A DNA stretch of 45,526 nucleotides. Origin: Candidatus Saccharimonadota bacterium. GTDB taxonomy: Bacteria; Patescibacteriota; Saccharimonadia; Saccharimonadales; Saccharimonadaceae. The position numbers and the translations under genes were made by a program. Every line of letters begins with the position of its first letter. Within the stretch, counting starts at the first letter, position 1. The notes under the pieces are model-generated. The model worked only from the letters and a program-made list of their open reading frames with translations. It was not told the origin of the DNA and did not search any database. The stretch spans positions 1 through 45,526 of the forward strand of contig JAPUDQ010000033.1 of NCBI GenBank assembly GCA_027493025.1. Reading direction: 5' to 3'. Positions 58-19,008 of the stretch are shown one piece after another.

Positions 58-185
58 ATACCTGAGACTCAAAACCCCCGCTCCAGACAAATTCGGCCAG
101 CCGCTAACTGATACAGCCTTCGCTCTTGGCTGGCCTCAGCCGAGAGGCTGACTGTCTGTCTCGGGAGGTTTTAAGACTCAGGTAT
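58..185. repeat. 128-bp inverted-repeat element with three-way-junction fold
   Basis: Two 22-base arms, 58-79 and 164-185, are inverted copies of each other with three mismatches (each begins ATACCTGAG when read inward). Inside them CAGACA (84-89) pairs with TGTCTG (153-158), and two further hairpins follow: GGCCAGCC/GGCTGGCC (95-102/128-135) and TCAGCC/GGCTGA (136-141/146-151). Together they make a closed, Y-shaped fold on either strand. The right arm is an exact reverse complement of 8069-8090, at the 5' end of the large RNA candidate. No target-site duplication is visible. It could be a small mobile element (MITE-like) or a structured RNA; the sequence does not settle which. Confidence 0.6.
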
Positions 186-4777: not shown

Positions 4778-4962
4778 GTAAACCGGAGGGGTAAAACAAG
4801 AGAAATCTTGGGTGGATTTATCTAACCGGTTACCTACCGACAAATGTCGCACGGATGCTAAAACGAACAATATAAAGCAATTAATCCAAAGCGAAATAAG
4901 GTCGACGCGTATCCTGTCCACCAGCGGGTGGAGTAAGACAGAGTATCGGTAGCAGGTACACG
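4778..4962 (+). promoter_or_regulatory. Structured 5' leader, possible c-di-AMP (ydaO-type) riboswitch
   Basis: The leader is about 185 nt. AACCGG near its 5' end can pair with CCGGTT around 4830. A GNRA-capped hairpin (CAAGA-GAAA-TCTTG) sits between GGGGTAAAA and GGGTGGATTTATC, and the later block CACGGATGCTAAAACG resembles the CCGUCAGCUAACC block of ydaO riboswitches. TCCACC and GGTGGA near 4920-4932 form another hairpin. c-di-AMP riboswitches are known upstream of cell-wall hydrolase genes, which fits the gene that follows. The match is by eye and imperfect; another structured leader is possible. Confidence 0.45.
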
Positions 4963-6120
4963 GTGACGTGTTCCACGGAGAACGTAATTAGTGCTCATCT
5001 ATCAGGTTCGCCTGTATTAACCAAGCTTACAAAACGGTCGCGGTCGCGCCGACTGAAAAAGATAACAACATTTACCATGTATGCAACGGCAGTTGCCTTA
5101 ATTGCAAGTGTTGTTTCTGTTGGCTATGAGTCTCCGATTGAACAAAAAGTAGTGGCGCAATCCAGCGGTTCCACGGCGATGCAACTCGCTAATCCTTCAG
5201 TTGATCAGCTCCAGGCTGCTGAACTGGCGGCTGGTGCAGCACAAATCAGTAACTTATCAGTTGCGACAAATGTGACGAATCTTTCGATTTCGCTTGGCGC
5301 TAAAAGCGAATTAGCGCAGACAAGTGATACGATTCTTTCTAAACCGCAAATTGTTCAATCGGGGACTGACCGCCGTGGAATTAGCGAATACACAACCGTT
5401 ACCGGTGATTCTGTGCAAACGATAGCTGAAAAATATGGAGTTAGTGTCCAGACTATCAAATGGGTTAATCGTTTAACGAGTGACGCGTTAACCCCTGGTA
5501 CAAAATTATCAATTCCAGGTGTTGATGGCATTATTCACACGGTTGCTGCCGGTGATACTGTTGATACGATAGCCAGTAAATATAGCGCTGACAAGTCTCG
5601 CATCCTTACCTACAATGACCTTGAACTCGCGGCAGTTCAGCCTGGCCAAAAAGTTGTGGTGCCTGCTGGGATTCTCCCTGTCAATGATCGTCCAGAGGCT
5701 ATCCAGCGTGCTCAAACAGCCTATGCTGGCATTGCAACAACTCGGGCTTCGAGTGCGCCGCAACAAACGTATACGAACGCTACGATTGCTGGTAATCGCT
5801 ACGATTACGGTTACTGTACGTGGTATGCCTATAACCGTCGTGCGGAATTAGGACGTCCAGTGGGTAGTTTCTGGGGTAATGCGGCAACCTGGGCAAGTTT
5901 CGCGCGCGGTAGCGGGTACGTGGTGAATAATTCACCAGCAGTTGGTGCAGTGATGCAAGATAGCTACTCGGCCGGTGGGTATGGTCACGTTGCGGTTGTT
6001 GAGTCAATTGGTACTGATGGATCAGTGACAATATCTGAGATGAACTATGCAGGATGGAACCGCTATTCGACCCGCACGCTAGATCCAGGTCAAGCCGCTC
6101 GCTACAACTTTATTCACTAG
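4963..6120 (+). CDS. Secreted LysM-LysM-CHAP peptidoglycan hydrolase
   Basis: 385 residues starting at GTG. A basic stretch (KRSRSRRLKK) precedes a hydrophobic export signal near 39-55. LysM repeats begin at about 141 (TTVTGDSVQTIAEKYGVS) and 189 (HTVAAGDTVDTIASKYSA). The CHAP domain occupies the C-terminal 110 residues, with catalytic Cys285 in YGYCTWYAY and His342 in GHVAVVE. LysM binds glycan strands; CHAP is usually an amidase or endopeptidase. The enzyme may remodel the cell's own wall or act on the wall of a host bacterium. It has its own promoter and long leader. The start is uncertain; no strong ribosome-binding site is seen (AGCAGG is the best). Confidence 0.85.
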   Translation: MTCSTENVISAHLSGSPVLTKLTKRSRSRRLKKITTFTMYATAVALIASVVSVGYESPIEQKVVAQSSGSTAMQLANPSVDQLQAAELAAGAAQISNLSVATNVTNLSISLGAKSELAQTSDTILSKPQIVQSGTDRRGISEYTTVTGDSVQTIAEKYGVSVQTIKWVNRLTSDALTPGTKLSIPGVDGIIHTVAAGDTVDTIASKYSADKSRILTYNDLELAAVQPGQKVVVPAGILPVNDRPEAIQRAQTAYAGIATTRASSAPQQTYTNATIAGNRYDYGYCTWYAYNRRAELGRPVGSFWGNAATWASFARGSGYVVNNSPAVGAVMQDSYSAGGYGHVAVVESIGTDGSVTISEMNYAGWNRYSTRTLDPGQAARYNFIH

Positions 6121-6171: not shown

Positions 6172-7470
6172 ATGTTTGTAGATAATGCGCTCGTGATGGT
6201 TCGGGCTGGCAAAGGCGGTGACGGTATCGTCAGTTTTCGGCATGAAAAATACGTGGAATATGGCGGGCCGGATGGTGGTGATGGTGGCCGCGGGGGAAAC
6301 GTTGTTTTCAAGGCGGATGAACGCAAGAATACTCTGGTTGATTTTCGATACAAACCAGAGATTAAGGCTCATGACGGTCAGGTTGGTGGCAAACGGCAAA
6401 AACACGGTAAAAACGGCGCAGATATTACGGTATCAGTACCGATTGGAACGCAAATTTATCGTGATAATGAGCTGATTGCTGATCTAACAGAGAAGGATCA
6501 GATTGCGGTTGTAGCAAGAGGTGGAGACGGCGGATTTGGAAACGCACACTTCAAAAGTTCGGTGCGCCAGACGCCACGCGTTGCCGAACTCGGTGAGAAA
6601 GGTGATGAGTTTGAGGCTCGTCTTGAGCTAAAGTTGCTGGCGGATGTCGGACTGATTGGTTTTCCAAATGCGGGAAAATCAACCTTTTTGAGTGTCGTTA
6701 GTAATGCTAAACCAGAGATAGCTGACTATGAGTTTACGACTCTGACGCCAAACCTTGGTGTGGCGGACATTGATGATACGAGTCTGCTCATTGCGGATAT
6801 TCCGGGTTTGATCGAAGGCGCAAGTGAGGGTAAAGGGCTGGGGGGTACATTCCTTCGCCATGTAGAGCGAACGGCAGTTTTGCTGCATCTGATCGATGCC
6901 TATAGCGATGATATCGCTGAGCAATACAGGATTATTCATAATGAATTGAAAAAGTATAACCCGTCACTTTTAGAGCGGCCTGAGATAGTGGCGCTTACCA
7001 AGATCGAGGGCTTGGACAAAGAGATGATTAGCATGCAGACGACGGAGCTTCGTCAGGTGGTTCCGAATGCTACTCCGATCATGGCCATATCTTCATCGGC
7101 TCATATCGGACTAGAAACGGTGTTGCGTGAGCTGGCAAAAATTGTTGCCGAAACTCGTGCGAAACGACAGGCTGATACTGAAAAAAGCCTTGATACTGGT
7201 GAGATTCCGACAATATCACTCTCTGAGCGTGAGCTTGATACGGCGTGGCGCGTCACAAAAGACAAAAATACGTATATTGTGACCGGTCCAAAGATTGAGA
7301 AGTTTGCTGCGCGGACGGACTTTGAGAATATCCATAGCGTGAATCGTCTGAGGGATATCATGCGCAAAATTGGCATTATGCACGAGTTATCCCGTGCTGG
7401 TGCAACTGGCGATAGCGAGGTGTATATTGGTGAAGACCGTGTGCATCACTTGACAATGCTTGAGCAGTAG
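6172..7470 (+). CDS. obgE: Obg/CgtA GTPase, ribosome assembly
   Basis: 432 residues with all three parts of a full Obg. The glycine-rich Obg fold (1-158) contains MVRAGKGGDGIVSFRHEKYV and GGPDGGDGGRGGNV. The G domain has G1 GFPNAGKS (163-170), the switch TTLTPNLGV, and G3 DIPGLIEGAS. The C-terminal OCT domain (about 345-430) includes WRVTKDKNTYIVTGPKIEKF. Obg binds the large ribosomal subunit and couples assembly to nucleotide levels. The G4 motif, normally NKxD, reads TKIE in IVALTKIEGLD, a change at both defining positions. It has its own promoter and appears monocistronic. Confidence 0.95.
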   Translation: MFVDNALVMVRAGKGGDGIVSFRHEKYVEYGGPDGGDGGRGGNVVFKADERKNTLVDFRYKPEIKAHDGQVGGKRQKHGKNGADITVSVPIGTQIYRDNELIADLTEKDQIAVVARGGDGGFGNAHFKSSVRQTPRVAELGEKGDEFEARLELKLLADVGLIGFPNAGKSTFLSVVSNAKPEIADYEFTTLTPNLGVADIDDTSLLIADIPGLIEGASEGKGLGGTFLRHVERTAVLLHLIDAYSDDIAEQYRIIHNELKKYNPSLLERPEIVALTKIEGLDKEMISMQTTELRQVVPNATPIMAISSSAHIGLETVLRELAKIVAETRAKRQADTEKSLDTGEIPTISLSERELDTAWRVTKDKNTYIVTGPKIEKFAARTDFENIHSVNRLRDIMRKIGIMHELSRAGATGDSEVYIGEDRVHHLTMLEQ

Positions 7471-7475
7471 CGGTC

Positions 7476-8039
7476 TTATGGAGTCAGTTGAAAATAGCGC
7501 AGTAATTTTCGGGTAGTGGAAGGATCAAAATGAGTGATTGTGCCGTAGCTGACAAAGGATTGAAGGTTTGTATAAGTGATGATTTGCTCAAGTATAGCCG
7601 TACATTCGTAGGGATGAACCCATGTACTGTTGCGGATCATATAAAATCCCAAGCGTTTGAGCTGTGCCGTTAGCAAGTAGCGGGATTGACTATGGCGTGA
7701 CGGGATATCAAAGAAAATGACTTGCCATGAATTGCTCCAGACTTTGGGGGGCGAAATAACCAGGCGATCTATGACAGACTTTTGTAGTCGATAAAACCCT
7801 TTCGTCGATAGCTGAATTTTGAGGATATATCCGTCGCGAGCCAGCTCAACAAGCTGTTGCCGACGTAATTCGTGAGCAATTCGAGAACGGATTTCGGGTG
7901 GAACGGCTCGTGGAATGCCGAGATGGTTAAGAGCTTCAACAAGCGATCGGGCATGGATGCTAAGGCCCGAAAAACCTTCATTGCCGATCAGTTGCAAGGT
8001 TGTGTCGACATAACGAGGAAGAGACGGTTTCATATACAT
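7476..8039 (-). CDS. PaaX-like regulator with Cas2-like domain
   Basis: 187 residues. The N-terminal half looks like a winged helix (IRSRIAHELRRQQLVELARDGYILKIQLSTKG). The C-terminal half has the PaaX/Cas2-type ferredoxin block SWQVIFFDIPSRHSQSRYLL followed by LKRLGFYMIRNSTWVHPYEC. Similar proteins in CPR genomes are labelled either PaaX family or CRISPR Cas2; with a winged helix, no CRISPR array and no cas genes nearby, a transcriptional repressor is the better reading. It is convergent with obgE (5-base gap) and divergent from the large RNA, with which its promoter overlaps, so it may control both itself and that RNA. ATG 8039 is followed by a second ATG at 8033. Confidence 0.6.
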   Translation of the reverse strand: MYMKPSLPRYVDTTLQLIGNEGFSGLSIHARSLVEALNHLGIPRAVPPEIRSRIAHELRRQQLVELARDGYILKIQLSTKGFYRLQKSVIDRLVISPPKVWSNSWQVIFFDIPSRHSQSRYLLTAQLKRLGFYMIRNSTWVHPYECTAILEQIITYTNLQSFVSYGTITHFDPSTTRKLLRYFQLTP

Positions 8040-8049
8040 ATTTTAACAG

Positions 8050-8057
8050 AGTATAAA
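8050..8057. promoter_or_regulatory. Overlapping divergent -10 boxes (regulator / large RNA)
   Basis: On the - strand TATACT (8055-8050) ends 10 bases before the regulator ATG at 8039. On the + strand TATAAA (8052-8057) would start an RNA near 8064. The two hexamers share bases, so the two transcripts probably compete. The + strand -35 (TTCATA, 8029-8034) is weak. Confidence 0.45.
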
Positions 8058-8063
8058 AAATGT

Positions 8064-8730
8064 CAGAAATACCTGAGTCTTAAAACCTCCTTAACGTATC
8101 AGATAGTTTTCAAGTCATCTCGTCCGACACGTCACTCTTTTCGCAAAACGAATAGATGTGAGGGTGGCGTATCGGACGAGATGCGTCGAAGCGACTCGTC
8201 ACTCCACGCGTTCCTACTCCATGAGAAAGGCTGTGGATGAATTTCACATCAGGATTCATCTAGGTGTAGCATTTGCCCTCCGAGAGAAAGGATGACCATG
8301 TGGTCGGCTGGCTTTGTCTAGCAAATTCGGTGGCTCCGTCGCCATCTGTCTCGTAAACCTCAACGAGGCAAGAGTACTGCAGAGGTACCCAAGTCCCCAA
8401 CGACACCGACTGATTGCCTAGGCGGCTGCCTCCCCTTAAAGACGGGGACCTCAAGCGTCAGCACGCACCATAGTATGGGGCAGAACTTGTTCCGCAATGA
8501 GCATCTCACTGGTGCACATTTGCGGAGCAAACAGTCGAACAAAACTGAATACCAATCGAATAGCTTCTGTAGTGGGGCGAATAGTGCTGTCAGGATGACT
8601 GCATCTCCCGGATCTATATCCGGAGTAGATGAGGACGGATGTCCTCCTATTCGCCCCATCGCGGCACTCTCTATCTGATACGTTATTTTCCATGATCTTG
8701 TAGTAGCGCCTGAAAAGGCGTGTTTTTATT
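8064..8730 (+). ncRNA. Large structured non-coding RNA, family not recognised
   Basis: The span has no credible protein gene but is full of long exact helices. AACGTATCAGATAG (8093-8106) pairs perfectly with CTATCTGATACGTT (8671-8684), closing a 592-nt domain. Within it lie a 12-bp helix CATCTCGTCCGA/TCGGACGAGATG (8116-8127/8172-8183) continued by 7 bp inside; an 11-bp helix TTGTTCCGCAA/TTGCGGAGCAA (8487-8497/8520-8530); and a 12-bp helix TGGGGCGAATAG/CTATTCGCCCCA (8573-8584/8647-8658). GAGGAC/GTCCTC, GACCA/TGGTC and CTCCCC/GGGGA add smaller hairpins. An intrinsic terminator follows at 8707-8730. Conserved RNase P and tmRNA blocks were sought and not found. The size and terminal helix recall ornate large RNAs such as OLE, ROOL or GOLLD, but no match to any of these could be shown. 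The exact 5' end is inferred. Confidence 0.7.
8707..8730 (+). terminator. Intrinsic terminator of the large RNA
   Basis: CGCCT-GAAA-AGGCG (8707-8720) is a GNRA-capped 5-bp stem followed directly by TGTTTTTATT. It lies 22 bases after the terminal helix of the RNA and fixes the + strand as its sense. Confidence 0.75.
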
Positions 8731-8782
8731 GTAGATATTCGTTTGCGCTCATGATGTATAGATTATATACTCTCGGCTAGTT

Positions 8783-8788
8783 TATACT
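8783..8788 (+). promoter_or_regulatory. -10 box of sbcB, leaderless spacing
   Basis: TATACT ends 7 bases before ATG 8796. A second TATACT at 8766-8771 would give a leader of about 18 nt. No ribosome-binding site is evident. Confidence 0.55.
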
Positions 8789-8795
8789 GGGAGAC

Positions 8796-10220
8796 ATGAC
8801 GCGTCAATCATCTGCTCCAAAAACATATTTCTTTTATGACCTGGAAACGAGTGGACTCAGCCCGCGCGATGATCGGATTATGCAGTTTGCGGGTCAACGT
8901 ACTGATATGTCTATGAAGCCGATCGGTGAGCCAGTCAATGTACTCGTGCAACTATCAGACGATATTCTCCCGAGCCCTGAGGCAATTGTTGTGACGGGGA
9001 TTACGCCGCAACAGACACTGGCGGATGGAATGAAAGAATCAGAATTCTGCCAATTTATCAGTGAAGCTGTTTTTACGCCTGGTACGATTGCAGTCGGGTA
9101 CAATAACGTGCGGTTTGATGATGAATTTATCCGGCATACTTTGTGGCGGAATTTTTATGATCCCTATGAGTGGACGTGGGCAGATGGACGTGGACGCTGG
9201 GATCTCCTCGATGTCATCCGAATGACTCGGGCACTTCGTCCCGAAGAGATTGAGTGGCCCGTTGATGAAACCGGCAAATCAGTCAACAAACTTGAACTTC
9301 TGGCGAAAATTAACAAGCTCGTACATACGCGCGCGCATGATGCGCTCAGTGATGTGGAGGCATTGATTGCGCTTAGTCGACTTGTTAAGAAAAGCCAACC
9401 CAAGCTTTTTGACTATCTCTTTATGATGCGCAGTAAACAGGAAGTTGCAAAGCTTGTTAATCTTGATAATCCGCAGCCGTTTGTCTATATCTCGGGGAGA
9501 TATGATCCGGCACATGAGAAGACGACGGTCGCGTTGCCGATAGCGCCGGGTACAAAGCCGGGTTCAGTTTTGGTCTATGATTTGCGGTTTGATCCTAGTC
9601 AATTTCTTTCGGCCACACCAAAACAGCTCGCCAGTATTATTTTTGCCGATCGTGATACTCGTCGGCAAGAAGGCTTTGTGTCATTACCTGTTAAGGAATT
9701 GAGCTACAATCGGTGTCCAGCGGTAGCACCGCTTGGTGTTTTGGATGAGACTGCGCAAAAAAGATTAGAGCTTAATATGGATATGATTCGTCAGCATTAC
9801 GCAACCTTGGTGGCGGCAAAACCATTTGCGGTAGCAGTCCAAGAAGCCTTTGCGATGCGTGAGCCGTATGCACCAACGGCTGATGTTGAGCATAAGCTCT
9901 ACGATGGCTTTATGCCAGATGGCGATAAAGTCCGTGCGGCAGCAGTCCGTGCCGCAGATACAGATATACTCGCTGATTTTGCGCCTGAATTTTCAGATCA
10001 ACGACTTTCGGAGTTGCTACTTCGTTATAAGGCACGTCAATTTCCAACGAGTTTGAATGAATCGGAGTTTCAAGCGTGGGAAGCATACCGCAGTCAAAAG
10101 TTAAAAACCCAGTTACCAATCTATCTTGCGAGTTTGCAGCGTCTCCAGCAACAAGGGGTCAATGAGTATCTCCTTCAAGAGCTTCAGTTGTGGGCTGAGA
10201 GTATTGTCCCCTTGGATTAG
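8796..10220 (+). CDS. sbcB: Exonuclease I (SbcB), 3'-5' single-strand DNA exonuclease
   Basis: 474 residues, close to E. coli ExoI. The DEDDh exonuclease fold is complete: FFYDLETSGLSPRDDRIMQF holds D15 and E17, GYNNVRFDDEFIRHTLWRNFYDPY holds the next aspartate and the ExoI-specific aromatic run, and RAHDALSDVEALIALS holds the H...D pair. The C-terminal half corresponds to the SH3-like and helical domains that clamp ssDNA. ExoI removes 3' single strands during recombination and mismatch repair. It is convergent with a small membrane-protein gene (4-base overlap of the ends). UvrA and UvrC also occur in this window, so DNA repair is comparatively well represented. Confidence 0.9.
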   Translation: MTRQSSAPKTYFFYDLETSGLSPRDDRIMQFAGQRTDMSMKPIGEPVNVLVQLSDDILPSPEAIVVTGITPQQTLADGMKESEFCQFISEAVFTPGTIAVGYNNVRFDDEFIRHTLWRNFYDPYEWTWADGRGRWDLLDVIRMTRALRPEEIEWPVDETGKSVNKLELLAKINKLVHTRAHDALSDVEALIALSRLVKKSQPKLFDYLFMMRSKQEVAKLVNLDNPQPFVYISGRYDPAHEKTTVALPIAPGTKPGSVLVYDLRFDPSQFLSATPKQLASIIFADRDTRRQEGFVSLPVKELSYNRCPAVAPLGVLDETAQKRLELNMDMIRQHYATLVAAKPFAVAVQEAFAMREPYAPTADVEHKLYDGFMPDGDKVRAAAVRAADTDILADFAPEFSDQRLSELLLRYKARQFPTSLNESEFQAWEAYRSQKLKTQLPIYLASLQRLQQQGVNEYLLQELQLWAESIVPLD

Positions 10221-15039: not shown

Positions 15040-18000
15040 ATGTCTCGACTCCCTCCGCCTGGCTCTGATTCTGGTAAATGGGGCGATATCCTCAACGACT
15101 ATCTCAAACAAAGTCACAAGACGGACGGTACGCTTAGTGATAACACTGTTAGTAGCTCAACTATCCAGAATAATGCGGTTACGACTGTTAAGCTCGCAGA
15201 TAAAGCGATCACCTCTCCAAAACTGGCTGATAATAGTATCACGTCTGTGCAGCTTGCTCCTGGATCGGTCACCGCTACGGCGATAGCTCAGAATGCGGTT
15301 TCTTCTGTTAGTATTCAAGATGGAGCTGTACCGGGGGCGAAATTGTCGGACAATTCTATTTCTGAGTCCAAGCTAGAATTAGCGATTCGGGATAAGCTTA
15401 ATACCCCTTCAGTTGTTGAGGATGGAACAGTCCTCCCGATCAAGCTCAGTACGACAGGTACTGCCGCACAGAACAATGATATCCTAACCTACGATAATAC
15501 ATCACAGAAGTTCGCATGGTCGTCAGCAAATTCAGTTATCCCCGACCACTCTCTTACCGCCCTCAAACTAAACACCCCCACCACTCCTACTCCCATCAAT
15601 GGTGATGTGCTTGTCCTGGATAGTTCTGCTCCTGGTGGATTCAAATGGCAAGCCGTTTCTTCTGGTTCTAGTGCACCAAGTGGACCAGCGGGTGGTGACC
15701 TCTCCGGAACGTATCCGAATCCGACGGTGCCGGGACTAGCTACCAAACTAAGCACCTCTGCTCTTGATACCGACATAACCCTGGCTGCCAACAGTGATAC
15801 CAAGATCGCCAGTCAGAAAGCCGTCAAGGCATATGTTGACGGAAAAGTCGCCACCAGTATCACTCCCGATACCGATGCAACTCTCGGCGGTAATACGCCT
15901 AGTGACAGTACCGTATCAAGTCAGAAGGCGGTTAAGGGATATGTGGATGGAGTCACCGCGTCAACACTGAGTTCTACGACGAGTTTTGTCAGAAACCAAT
16001 ATACGAGTGCACAGACCGCAGGGCTCTGGGTGAGTGGGAAAATGCGCTCCAATGACATCGTAGATGCAAAAGCTCCGCTTTTTCGTGGCTATTGGACGAA
16101 GAATACAACGAATGCAGCAGCCGGGCAGTGGACAAAGCTTTGTACGGCGACCCTAGGCGGACGGTATAGTGAGAATCGCGTAACTTGCGAAATAGTCTCT
16201 GTTAATGATGCGGGATCAGCCCAACGATGTATGGTGGATTTCCGGCAAAAGCAAGAGAATCTGATGGGTCAAGAACCCTATGTATCGATACGAGTATTTA
16301 ATACCGAAGGAATTGTAGCTGAGGATTTCGCAGCTATTACGACGCAAAAAACAACCACAAGCACTGTCACTGAACTATGGGGAAAAATCACCACCTATTA
16401 TACAGCGTGGGTAATGATGCCCCATACTACGTCTATTGCAGGTAATTCAGCTGTGGTTTGGCATGAAAACCAAACCTTTACGACTACGTTGCCTACCGGT
16501 ACACAAACCAAAGGTTATCTATTGCCTTTAGCCTCCGCTACAGCCGACCCAGTTGGGGCGGTCAACGGGACGGTGTATTACAATACAACTTCGCATAGTT
16601 TTCGAGCGTATCAAAATGGAGCTTGGAATACGCTCGGTGGTGGAAGCGTACAGAGTGTGGTTGGTCAAACCGGATCGATTACCGGAAGTCAAATTGCTAG
16701 TGATACGACCGTAGCTACGGCGTTCTATAAAACGATTGTACGCGCGACCTATGCCGACCTAACGGTAACAGTTTTACCATTTAGTATTGAGGGGTATTCA
16801 CATCCAGGGGGTACGATTACGGCTCTGCCCAATGGCGAATGGTATGTAGGGACAGATATCTTTACGGGTAATATCTTGACGCTACCGAGGCTCGGTCATC
16901 GTGGCTGGGTGCCACTAGCACGTATCACGACTGATGCGACCAAGGTGACCGCGATCTATCCTATGCGCCCGCGATTATATGACTGTCGGATCCCGCGTAC
17001 GATGCAGAAAATCCTTAAAGGCCAGGGAATAAATGTGGTGGTGATGGGCTCGTCGTTGACGGCGGGCGGTGCGGCAACTGATTGGTCGGGAATGGTGTTT
17101 GGGCCTGGTACGACAACAAACTATAAGGTACCAGGCAGTACGCTCGTGAATGTCGGAGTTGGCGGATCGCCAAATCAGTACCAGCTTGCTCAACTAGGGC
17201 TAGCTTCTGGACACACGAGTTATGGATTTAATTCATCTGGAGCTATTACGATGTTTACGGGTAAAAGACCGCCAAACGGACGGAGTCGGTTGCTGCGGGA
17301 TACCGACCTTGTCGTGATTGGTTGTCTGGCAAATGGTGGAGATTATCGCTTAGAAACGATTGAGCCACTGGTTCGCAAGTTGCGCAGCCAAAATGTTGAG
17401 GTCATTATGGTGACAGATAATGCACAAGGACCGACGGGTGACTATATAACTATGAAAAACGCAGGTCTTTACGTGGACGCGCCAGAGGTATTTCGGGTTG
17501 CAGACCTGTATGGAGTTGAAATTGCCGATACGGCTGCGTATGTATTTGAGGCGCATCTACGCAATAATGGCACAATTTACAGTGACAGTATTCATATGTC
17601 ACATGCCGCACCCGCTGGACGTACGGCTATACCCAGCGGCGGACATGAGGTATGGGCTCGCGCTGTCCGATCTATCTTCCCGGTCGATAGTGGCTCTGGT
17701 ATGCCTGTGCAAATCGGTAGCTATGATTTTTCGGCTGGCCAAGGAGCGTGGGTAGCGTATGGAACGCCCTCCTCTCTCGGCGTCGTTAATGGCGCATTAT
17801 CCTGTCAGGCCGACTCTTCTTTTGACGGTATGCAGATTGATGTTGGCTCGATTGGTACTGGCGATATCGTTACGGTGGAGTTTGATCTCACAACGACCGG
17901 ATCGGGCATGGTTGTGCAAGTCGGATTACTCAATGGTCCTTGGTCTTCAACGGGTAATATAGGGTGTACGTCAAGCGGACATTATACGGCAAGTCTGACG

Positions 18001-19008
18001 GCAACCTCAACAGCAGGCATGACCCTTGCCTTTATTGCCTTTGATGCAAATGGTACATTTACCATTGATAATGTCATAATTACTCATACGGTGTCTTCTG
18101 GTGCGATACGTGATCTTATTCCTGCCCGGCAGAACGCCATAACATCACTTCCACCAAGCCGTGTTGTAACCGATTATAAGACGCCAGGTGACGCATTTGT
18201 GATCTTGCCAAAAGATGAACTGTACGTAAATAATCCTGCTAATACGACTCGCGGCACATTGCAGATGCATCCGTGGAAAGCAGGTTCTTTTCAGCGGCAG
18301 TTTATTGGCGGCACCGATGCTGATGCGAATGATATGCTGGTGCTTGCTACGGGCAAAGAGTGCGTAATCGGGGCACATGGGGTTGTTGGCTGGTCATTGA
18401 TTCGGTATGCCGAGTCCTCTGATGCGGCCGTTACGGTCGAAATCCGCATAGACGGTAACCTTCAAAAAACATTGACATTCGCTACTACGCCGTTTGCAAA
18501 CGAATGGTATCATACGATTTATACACCTTCAGAGCTAGCTAAGGGATTTGCAACAGATGATGGTATTAAGAGTATTAGTCTCAAAGTGACGGCCGGTACT
18601 CTCAAAGTGGCAGCTCTTGTTGCGCTTACCGCTGATGTGGAGTTTCTTGGACCGGAGGATATCACGTATGTTGGAACGTGGAGTGCGAAACGTGAGATTT
18701 CACGAACTGATCTACCTGGTTTTTGGACTGATACAGCAGATAGCTATGCGTACGTTAAAAATCCAGGACGGCGGTTGGAATGGATCGTCGAGGGAAGTGC
18801 CAAGTCAAAAACAGTCGATATGTACTCAGGCTCCGAACAGGCATTAGCGCAAAGTTGCGTCGGTACTAATCATGTATTTCCAAGGTCTCTCTATGGACAA
18901 AATGAGATACATACTATAAAGTGCCTCGAAAATAATACGACGAGTACTTCGAATGCGGATGGACGAGCCTTGTATATTTTTGGTGCGGTTGTCTACCACG
19001 ACCGATAA
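15040..19008 (+). CDS. Large surface protein: tail-fibre-like repeats plus SGNH/GDSL hydrolase
   Basis: 1322 residues, the largest gene here. Residues 1-25 are a distinct capsule (PPPGSDSGKWGDILNDYL). Residues 30-130 are short repeats of the type NSI-x-KLADxAI, as in phage tail fibres. GGDLSGTYPNPTV (about 217-230) and two SSQKAVKAYVDG-type repeats (about 260-315) are also tail-fibre-like. An SGNH hydrolase follows, with Ser672 in GSSLTAGG and the Asp849/His852 pair in DSIHMSH. The rest (about 880-1322) looks like beta-sandwich binding domains, including IGTGDIVTVEFDLTTTG. It may deacetylate or de-esterify a polysaccharide and bind a surface. No signal peptide is visible. It is convergent with the lyase-like gene at 19019. 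Confidence 0.65.
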   Translation: MSRLPPPGSDSGKWGDILNDYLKQSHKTDGTLSDNTVSSSTIQNNAVTTVKLADKAITSPKLADNSITSVQLAPGSVTATAIAQNAVSSVSIQDGAVPGAKLSDNSISESKLELAIRDKLNTPSVVEDGTVLPIKLSTTGTAAQNNDILTYDNTSQKFAWSSANSVIPDHSLTALKLNTPTTPTPINGDVLVLDSSAPGGFKWQAVSSGSSAPSGPAGGDLSGTYPNPTVPGLATKLSTSALDTDITLAANSDTKIASQKAVKAYVDGKVATSITPDTDATLGGNTPSDSTVSSQKAVKGYVDGVTASTLSSTTSFVRNQYTSAQTAGLWVSGKMRSNDIVDAKAPLFRGYWTKNTTNAAAGQWTKLCTATLGGRYSENRVTCEIVSVNDAGSAQRCMVDFRQKQENLMGQEPYVSIRVFNTEGIVAEDFAAITTQKTTTSTVTELWGKITTYYTAWVMMPHTTSIAGNSAVVWHENQTFTTTLPTGTQTKGYLLPLASATADPVGAVNGTVYYNTTSHSFRAYQNGAWNTLGGGSVQSVVGQTGSITGSQIASDTTVATAFYKTIVRATYADLTVTVLPFSIEGYSHPGGTITALPNGEWYVGTDIFTGNILTLPRLGHRGWVPLARITTDATKVTAIYPMRPRLYDCRIPRTMQKILKGQGINVVVMGSSLTAGGAATDWSGMVFGPGTTTNYKVPGSTLVNVGVGGSPNQYQLAQLGLASGHTSYGFNSSGAITMFTGKRPPNGRSRLLRDTDLVVIGCLANGGDYRLETIEPLVRKLRSQNVEVIMVTDNAQGPTGDYITMKNAGLYVDAPEVFRVADLYGVEIADTAAYVFEAHLRNNGTIYSDSIHMSHAAPAGRTAIPSGGHEVWARAVRSIFPVDSGSGMPVQIGSYDFSAGQGAWVAYGTPSSLGVVNGALSCQADSSFDGMQIDVGSIGTGDIVTVEFDLTTTGSGMVVQVGLLNGPWSSTGNIGCTSSGHYTASLTATSTAGMTLAFIAFDANGTFTIDNVIITHTVSSGAIRDLIPARQNAITSLPPSRVVTDYKTPGDAFVILPKDELYVNNPANTTRGTLQMHPWKAGSFQRQFIGGTDADANDMLVLATGKECVIGAHGVVGWSLIRYAESSDAAVTVEIRIDGNLQKTLTFATTPFANEWYHTIYTPSELAKGFATDDGIKSISLKVTAGTLKVAALVALTADVEFLGPEDITYVGTWSAKREISRTDLPGFWTDTADSYAYVKNPGRRLEWIVEGSAKSKTVDMYSGSEQALAQSCVGTNHVFPRSLYGQNEIHTIKCLENNTTSTSNADGRALYIFGAVVYHDR

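Follow-up and report, generated by a model that had tools for sequence, protein, structure and literature searches.

RNAIII of the agr system in Staphylococcus is a structured RNA of ~500 nt that has a small peptide ORF, long-range pairing of its ends and a terminator. The type I toxin mRNAs (hok, AapA1) are stable mRNAs for small peptides and show 5'-3' end pairing, and the bar minigenes of lambda are SD-led ORFs of only a few codons. GOLLD, ROOL and OLE are bacterial RNAs that span several hundred nt, are highly structured and have an unclear function. They form RNA-only multimers (PMC12286853).

We analysed contig C33 in full (45,526 nt; the window). It belongs to a 0.91-Mb Saccharibacterial genome (G000), whose genus is represented by that species alone in our comparison. 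A preliminary description had placed a large structured RNA of unknown family at positions 8064-8730. This RNA shares with RNAIII the structured fold, the end-closing pairing and the small ORF. The likeness is one of analogy and not homology, and none of the searches made revealed homology to RNAIII. RNAIII also differs in having one conserved peptide and antisense regulatory domains, whereas the Saccharibacterial RNAs described below have a variable coding content (cargo) and several micro-ORFs. End pairing is shared with the type I toxin mRNAs, but scaffold and cargo are different. A simple promoter scan of 7950-8800 gave no minus-strand promoter for an antisense RNA, which is a weak indication, and the peptides of the GF micro-ORFs (4-9 aa) seem too short for a membrane toxin. 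The lambda bar minigenes, in turn, are not structured end-closed RNAs, and nothing seen here points to toxicity. GOLLD, ROOL and OLE are likewise large and highly structured, but the RNA studied here has no Rfam match, and its family has SD-led ORFs and little conserved sequence. By analogy, the design resembles that of dual-function RNAs and end-paired toxin mRNAs, yet with a conserved scaffold around a changing cargo.

Locus and fold of the window RNA

The RNA is found between obgE (6172-7470, + strand), the upstream anchor of the locus, and sbcB (exonuclease I; 8796-10220, + strand), which marks the locus in relatives. The order is RNA (8092-8685), terminator and then sbcB from 8796. A free-standing gene for a PaaX_M/Cas2-like protein of 187 aa (7476-8039, - strand) lies beside the RNA on the obgE side, and the closest relatives (L072, L073, and L074) have a similar gene in this position. 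Elsewhere in the window, a lysM-TM7 RNA motif (RF03005, 75 bits) covers 4832-4980 directly upstream of a gene starting at 4963, and the 1322-aa protein at 15040-19008 has no Pfam or NCBIfam match.

The minimum free energy of 8064-8730 is -252.4 kcal/mol compared with -199.6 ± 4.9 kcal/mol for shuffled sequences (z -10.8), and the interior still reaches z -8.1 when the P1 arms are removed. All features of the RNA given here lie on the + strand. Its ends are closed by P1, a perfect helix between the 5' arm at 8092-8106 (TAACGTATCAGATAG) and the 3' arm at 8671-8685, with a covarying equivalent in 31 relatives and a score of 35 against a shuffle maximum of 28.9. The helix had been described as 14 bp long (8093-8106/8671-8684); it is real and perfect, and its actual length is 15 bp. 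The internal helices of 11-12 bp were recovered as well. I1 (8109-8138/8161-8190) is the region of P2, a hairpin at 8116-8183 with a 12-bp stem (8116-8127/8172-8183), a C.A mismatch (8128/8171) and then an inner stem. I5 (8487-8497/8520-8530) forms an internal hairpin at 8487-8530 in the MFE fold. I4 (8573-8584/8647-8658; 12 bp, 100% paired) was found in the helix search and closes P3, the long 3'-side hairpin at 8573-8658, through TGGGGCGAATAG/CTATTCGCCCCA. The P3 counterpart in the relative L142 is TGGGGCGGAAGT/ACTTCCGCCCCA, which lies at the same place with both sides of the stem changed. The closing intrinsic terminator was also borne out, with a terminator-like site at 8706-8721 (GCGCCTGAAAAGGCGT) and then a T run (predicted terminator 8706-8731).

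The pseudoknot that had been suggested between CGAATAG at 8149-8155 and CTATTCG at 8647-8653 is doubtful, because the latter bases are already paired with 8573-8584 in the competing 12-bp P3 helix, and it was set aside. A motif before P3, AACTGAATA, was also rejected as too weak: it was present at 7 of 40 loci, and shuffles gave 1.3 (maximum 5).

The leader and promoter region of the window copy is atypical. A solo 22-nt end of a MITE-like inverted repeat (8069-8090, + strand) sits at the position of the leader hairpin of the relatives, in place of that hairpin, and the scan of 7950-8800 gave no sigma-70-like promoter before P1. The MITE-like element itself is ~128 bp with 22-bp inverted repeats (ATACCTGAGNCTNAAAACCNCC) and has four paired copies in this genome (window 58-185; C10:11704-11832; C27:3713-3839; C34:6246-6374). 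The repeat is also found at L045 1480-1525, and two of its ends stand back to back in G127.

Searches for known RNAs

Scanning the window against Rfam with Infernal (cmscan) gave no family at the gathering score, and only chance matches to microRNA hairpins were obtained for 7950-8830 up to E<=10. Ten loci from relatives were scanned at the gathering score without a match to GOLLD, ROOL or OLE. With no Rfam family matching, the kinship with these RNAs raised in the preliminary description is unsupported. RNase P RNA (RF00010) and tmRNA (RF00023), the latter likewise structured with an internal short ORF, are ruled out at this position. Their signatures had been reported absent, and both RNAs are indeed found elsewhere in the same genome, on contig C7 (17933-18278 and 14597-14984, respectively). 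ARAGORN predicted neither tRNA nor tmRNA in the window. Searches of 101 relatives and 394 family genomes with blastn returned short matches only, and phages and plasmids gave no full-length homolog either. We found no description of such an RNA in the open-access literature, a scope that leaves most subscription papers and preprints outside.

A family of RNAs upstream of sbcB

Sequence searches miss the family because only shape and position are conserved. Relatives were found by synteny: the DNA upstream of sbcB was taken from ~130 relatives, and the best long-range helix in each was scored. Around 30 loci scored at least 31, and the best of 39 shuffles scored 28.9. Two high scorers were dropped by hand, L091 with its AT-rich interior and L092, in which the obgE-sbcB gap is 8 nt and the helix lies within coding sequence. 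Two lower scorers (L098 and L146) were added for a family motif, which gave a final set of 31 relatives and the window. About 30 relatives thus have an RNA of 280-780 nt immediately before sbcB, and in the accepted members 24-150 nt separate the 3' arm of P1 from this gene. The insert is absent in some relatives, where the gap between obgE and sbcB is 4-100 nt, and the majority of relatives have no detectable copy.

Most relatives share the same anatomy. A TTGACA-N17-TATAAT promoter ~43 nt before P1 is followed by a leader hairpin, P1 and P2. After a variable interior come P3 as the 3' hairpin, the other arm of P1 and a terminator. P2 typically has a stem of 10-15 bp, which one or two 1x1 mismatches separate from an inner stem. 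All 19 RNAs tested have interiors that fold better than shuffles (z -3.0 to -10.9). Some loci carry tandem arrays with differing cargo upstream of sbcB: two RNAs in G137 (L182) and apparently three in G140 (L177, 1500-2600), each with its own promoter-like sequence.

Compensatory changes were observed in both P1 and P2. The two P1 arms of a locus form on average 12.6 of 13 Watson-Crick pairs, compared with 6.2 at the best register when arms are swapped between loci; the high own-arm score is partly by construction, since the loci were chosen by P1 strength. The informative point is that the sequence of the arms varies among loci while the pairing is kept, at a fixed place before sbcB. P2 played no part in picking the loci. 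In a MAFFT alignment of 15 sequences, 87% of the P2 cells are paired and 20 of the 21 pairs show double changes. The P2 covariation is 0.716, against 0.244 ± 0.026 for shuffled alignments and 0.11-0.15 for slid ones, where the slid control leans towards the drawn structure because this was taken from one aligned sequence.

From 15 of these loci we built a covariance model (R1) that covers the end of the leader, the P1 arm and P2. It matches 30 of 295 genomes of the family, mostly at the sbcB locus; the matches to the 15 source loci are by construction, and the new members include L183, L191, L194, L195, L200, L202, and L211. In a class-wide sample R1 found two more genomes, outside the family. 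P1 is also present in one of them (L211), but it is missing from L210 (family f31), which was rejected as a member. The L211 RNA (1512-2406), from another Saccharibacterial family, has a 15-bp P1 and a secreted-looking, Thr/Pro-rich ORF with an LPxTG-like sorting signal at its end (judged by eye).

The best match of R1 in the window region, at 8081-8182, falls exactly at P2 and is weak (12 bits). The window copy has the place upstream of sbcB, P1, P2 and two GF micro-ORFs. It does not have the sigma-70 promoter and leader hairpin; as these are found in most, not all, relatives, they are not required for membership. Judging from synteny, the compensatory changes and the Rfam result, these Saccharibacterial RNAs almost certainly form a real and hitherto undescribed family, to which the window RNA belongs; the family is conserved in shape and position and little in sequence. 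The structure and novelty in the preliminary description thus stand, while the coding content of the RNA had been missed.

Reading frames within the RNAs

The stretch had been called gene-free. This is only partly correct: the window copy has no long cargo ORF, but two SD-led micro-ORFs lie within the RNA, both on the + strand. Micro-ORF 1 (8237-8263, ATG..TAG) encodes MNFTSGFI and is preceded by the SD-like GAGAAAGG at 8223-8230. Micro-ORF 2 (8298-8321) encodes MWSAGFV, or MTMWSAGFV if read from 8292, and follows a second GAGAAAGG at 8284-8291. The two SD-like sequences were found by direct reading and belong to the two copies of a direct repeat (D1). Both micro-ORFs start six bases after GAGAAAGG, and it is the ATG at 8298 that keeps this spacing.

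SD-led micro-ORFs ending in [AST]GF[TIV] directly before the stop codon occur 12 times in the 32 RNAs, compared with 0.025 expected from dinucleotide shuffles (maximum 1 in 200). The motif was spotted in the same data before counting, and the excess is far larger than such a post hoc choice could give. No GF micro-ORFs were found on the antisense strand of the 32 RNAs. Ten of the 32 members have a micro-ORF with GF[TIV] before the stop, the window carrying two, and the shortest form is MGFT in L195. Among 13 GF micro-ORFs the Gly and Phe codons differ at the third base only, their first two bases being fixed, and serine is written as both TCN and AGT. The GF micro-ORFs show no uniform high-GC bias, and those of the window are too short for a test of codon usage.

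A second class of tiny ORFs also recurs (MRRHM, MKKRHM, MHRRCM, MLRQLSV, and others, each followed by a stop), to which the statistics for the GF class do not apply. These ORFs are SD-led, 4-10 codons long and often basic, and a small hairpin often follows immediately on the stop codon. Carriers include L134, L189, L100, L144, L098, L124, L119, and L195.

Many relatives contain longer ORFs (26-215 codons) whose codon usage is actinobacterial. Fifteen small cargo ORFs have a GC3 of 0.91 and a GC12 of 0.55 (Fisher P 3e-59), while the native genes of the same genomes have a GC3 of about 0.43. The pooled codon usage of the cargo correlates with that of Rhodococcus and Arthrobacter plasmid genes (r=0.91) and of a betaproteobacterial plasmid (r=0.86), and with that of native genes at 0.1 or less. 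The cargo prefers CTC over CTG, GTC over GTG and GCC over GCG, in line with actinobacteria. An unbiased pick of the longest SD-led ORF in each RNA gave 12 ORFs with GC3 of at least 0.8 compared with 0.1 in shuffles. Exceptions are L196 (0.50) and L203 (0.44), which are native-like, and L211 (0.61) and L213 (0.65), which are moderate. Between the cargos of G017 and G161 there are nine residue-changing codons, two synonymous ones and two whole-codon indels, and a change from G/C to A/T is seen at none of the third positions; the argument that GC3 is maintained rests on this species pair, the one that can be aligned.

By eye, the N-termini of L017, L036, and L095 are signal-peptide-like, and L200b has a lipobox. 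The 1.09-kb L200 RNA (1512-2602) holds two cargos, a membrane-type protein of 109 aa and a lipoprotein-type protein of 183 aa, with GC3 of 0.86 and 0.89. Comparison with Pfam, NCBIfam, phage and plasmid records gave no convincing homolog of the cargo and none recognisable outside Saccharibacteria, so that a known or phage protein as cargo was rejected. For L200b there is only a weak match in PHROG (phrog_902, 1e-6), as its lipoprotein N-terminus could give, and the L201 cargo has a sub-threshold cold-shock-domain signal. When 84,980 species genomes were scanned with this 215-aa cargo, it matched its own source record only, a Patescibacteria MAG.

Taken together, there is good support for the RNA family and for its coding content, and the ORFs are very probably translated somewhere.

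Where the RNAs may be translated

Known Saccharibacteria live on high-GC actinobacteria. We read the stretch as a gene for a structured mRNA of small peptides that is probably translated in the host, and give this reading a probability of about one half. The RNA would be transcribed with its ends sealed by P1 and, as we infer, would be stabilised by P2, P3 and the terminator. The scaffold would hold SD-led ORFs: in the window the two micro-ORFs with GFI and GFV at their ends, in many relatives ORFs of 26-215 codons. The epibiont would then export the protected RNA into the host, where host ribosomes would translate it, so that a conserved scaffold would serve as an RNA-borne effector for fast-changing cargo kept in host codon usage. 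The case for host translation is argued mainly from the codon usage of the cargo, and whether the cargo and micro-ORFs are read there is at best an even call. More tentatively, we propose that the end-sealed mRNAs are exported to bacterial hosts and translated there, the RNA itself being the effector, and that they may travel via the relaxase-less T4SS. Epibiotic growth requires the Saccharibacterial T4SS, for which no substrate is known and in which neither a relaxase nor a coupling protein can be recognised (PMC10633639, PMC12102498). These facts make an RNA substrate conceivable, no more.

The main rival is a dual-function structured RNA or mRNA used within the epibiont, comparable in kind to RNAIII/hld or the end-paired type I toxin mRNAs. 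The epibiont would then make the peptides itself, as secreted peptides, as leaders or from minigenes, and host DNA would be the source from which the high-GC cargos were captured. End closure and small ORFs in one RNA, the native promoters upstream and the lack of a uniform high-GC bias in the GF micro-ORFs all suit such use, and the signal-peptide-like N-termini fit secretion by the epibiont equally well. The high GC3 could likewise reflect repeated recent capture of actinobacterial genes that are translated in the epibiont. Against this, a GC3 of 0.91, confined to third positions, recurs in unrelated small ORFs from many genera whose native genes are at ~0.43; it is kept between G017 and G161, and donor genes were not found in phage and plasmid records or, for the L201 cargo, in the 84,980-genome scan. 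We consider use within the epibiont unlikely, if still to be taken seriously.

A purely structural or regulatory non-coding RNA, such as an ornate-like scaffold, a sponge or a regulator with incidental ORFs, would agree with the folding (z -10.8), the covariation of P1 and P2 and the absence of an Rfam match. It is quite improbable in view of the 12 GF micro-ORFs against 0.025 expected, the conservation by codon position and the third-position GC bias of the cargo. The locus could also be seen as a place where foreign genes are captured at the DNA level, a cassette or mobile element between obgE and sbcB, with the fold as a by-product. This view is highly improbable. A MITE-like end does adjoin the window copy, the content varies, copies are in tandem in G137 and G140 and the insert is missing from some relatives. 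Against it, one set of promoter, leader, P1, P2 and terminator is met again with unrelated cargo, the pairing of P1 and P2 is kept by compensatory changes, and an unsystematic look noticed no element ends beside the other copies.

Implications

The comparisons demonstrate a structured family with P1 and P2 and with coding ORFs inside it. If real and translated, it would add to the Candidate Phyla Radiation a class of large structured RNAs to which searches by sequence are blind. The preferred reading, in which the mRNA is translated in the host, goes further. If host ribosomes read the cargo, this would be mRNA-level delivery of effectors between bacteria, and the RNA would be a candidate substrate of the T4SS that Saccharibacteria need and that has no recognisable relaxase. 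Candidate hosts could also be compared with the cargo by codon usage, which offers a computable handle on the identity of the host.
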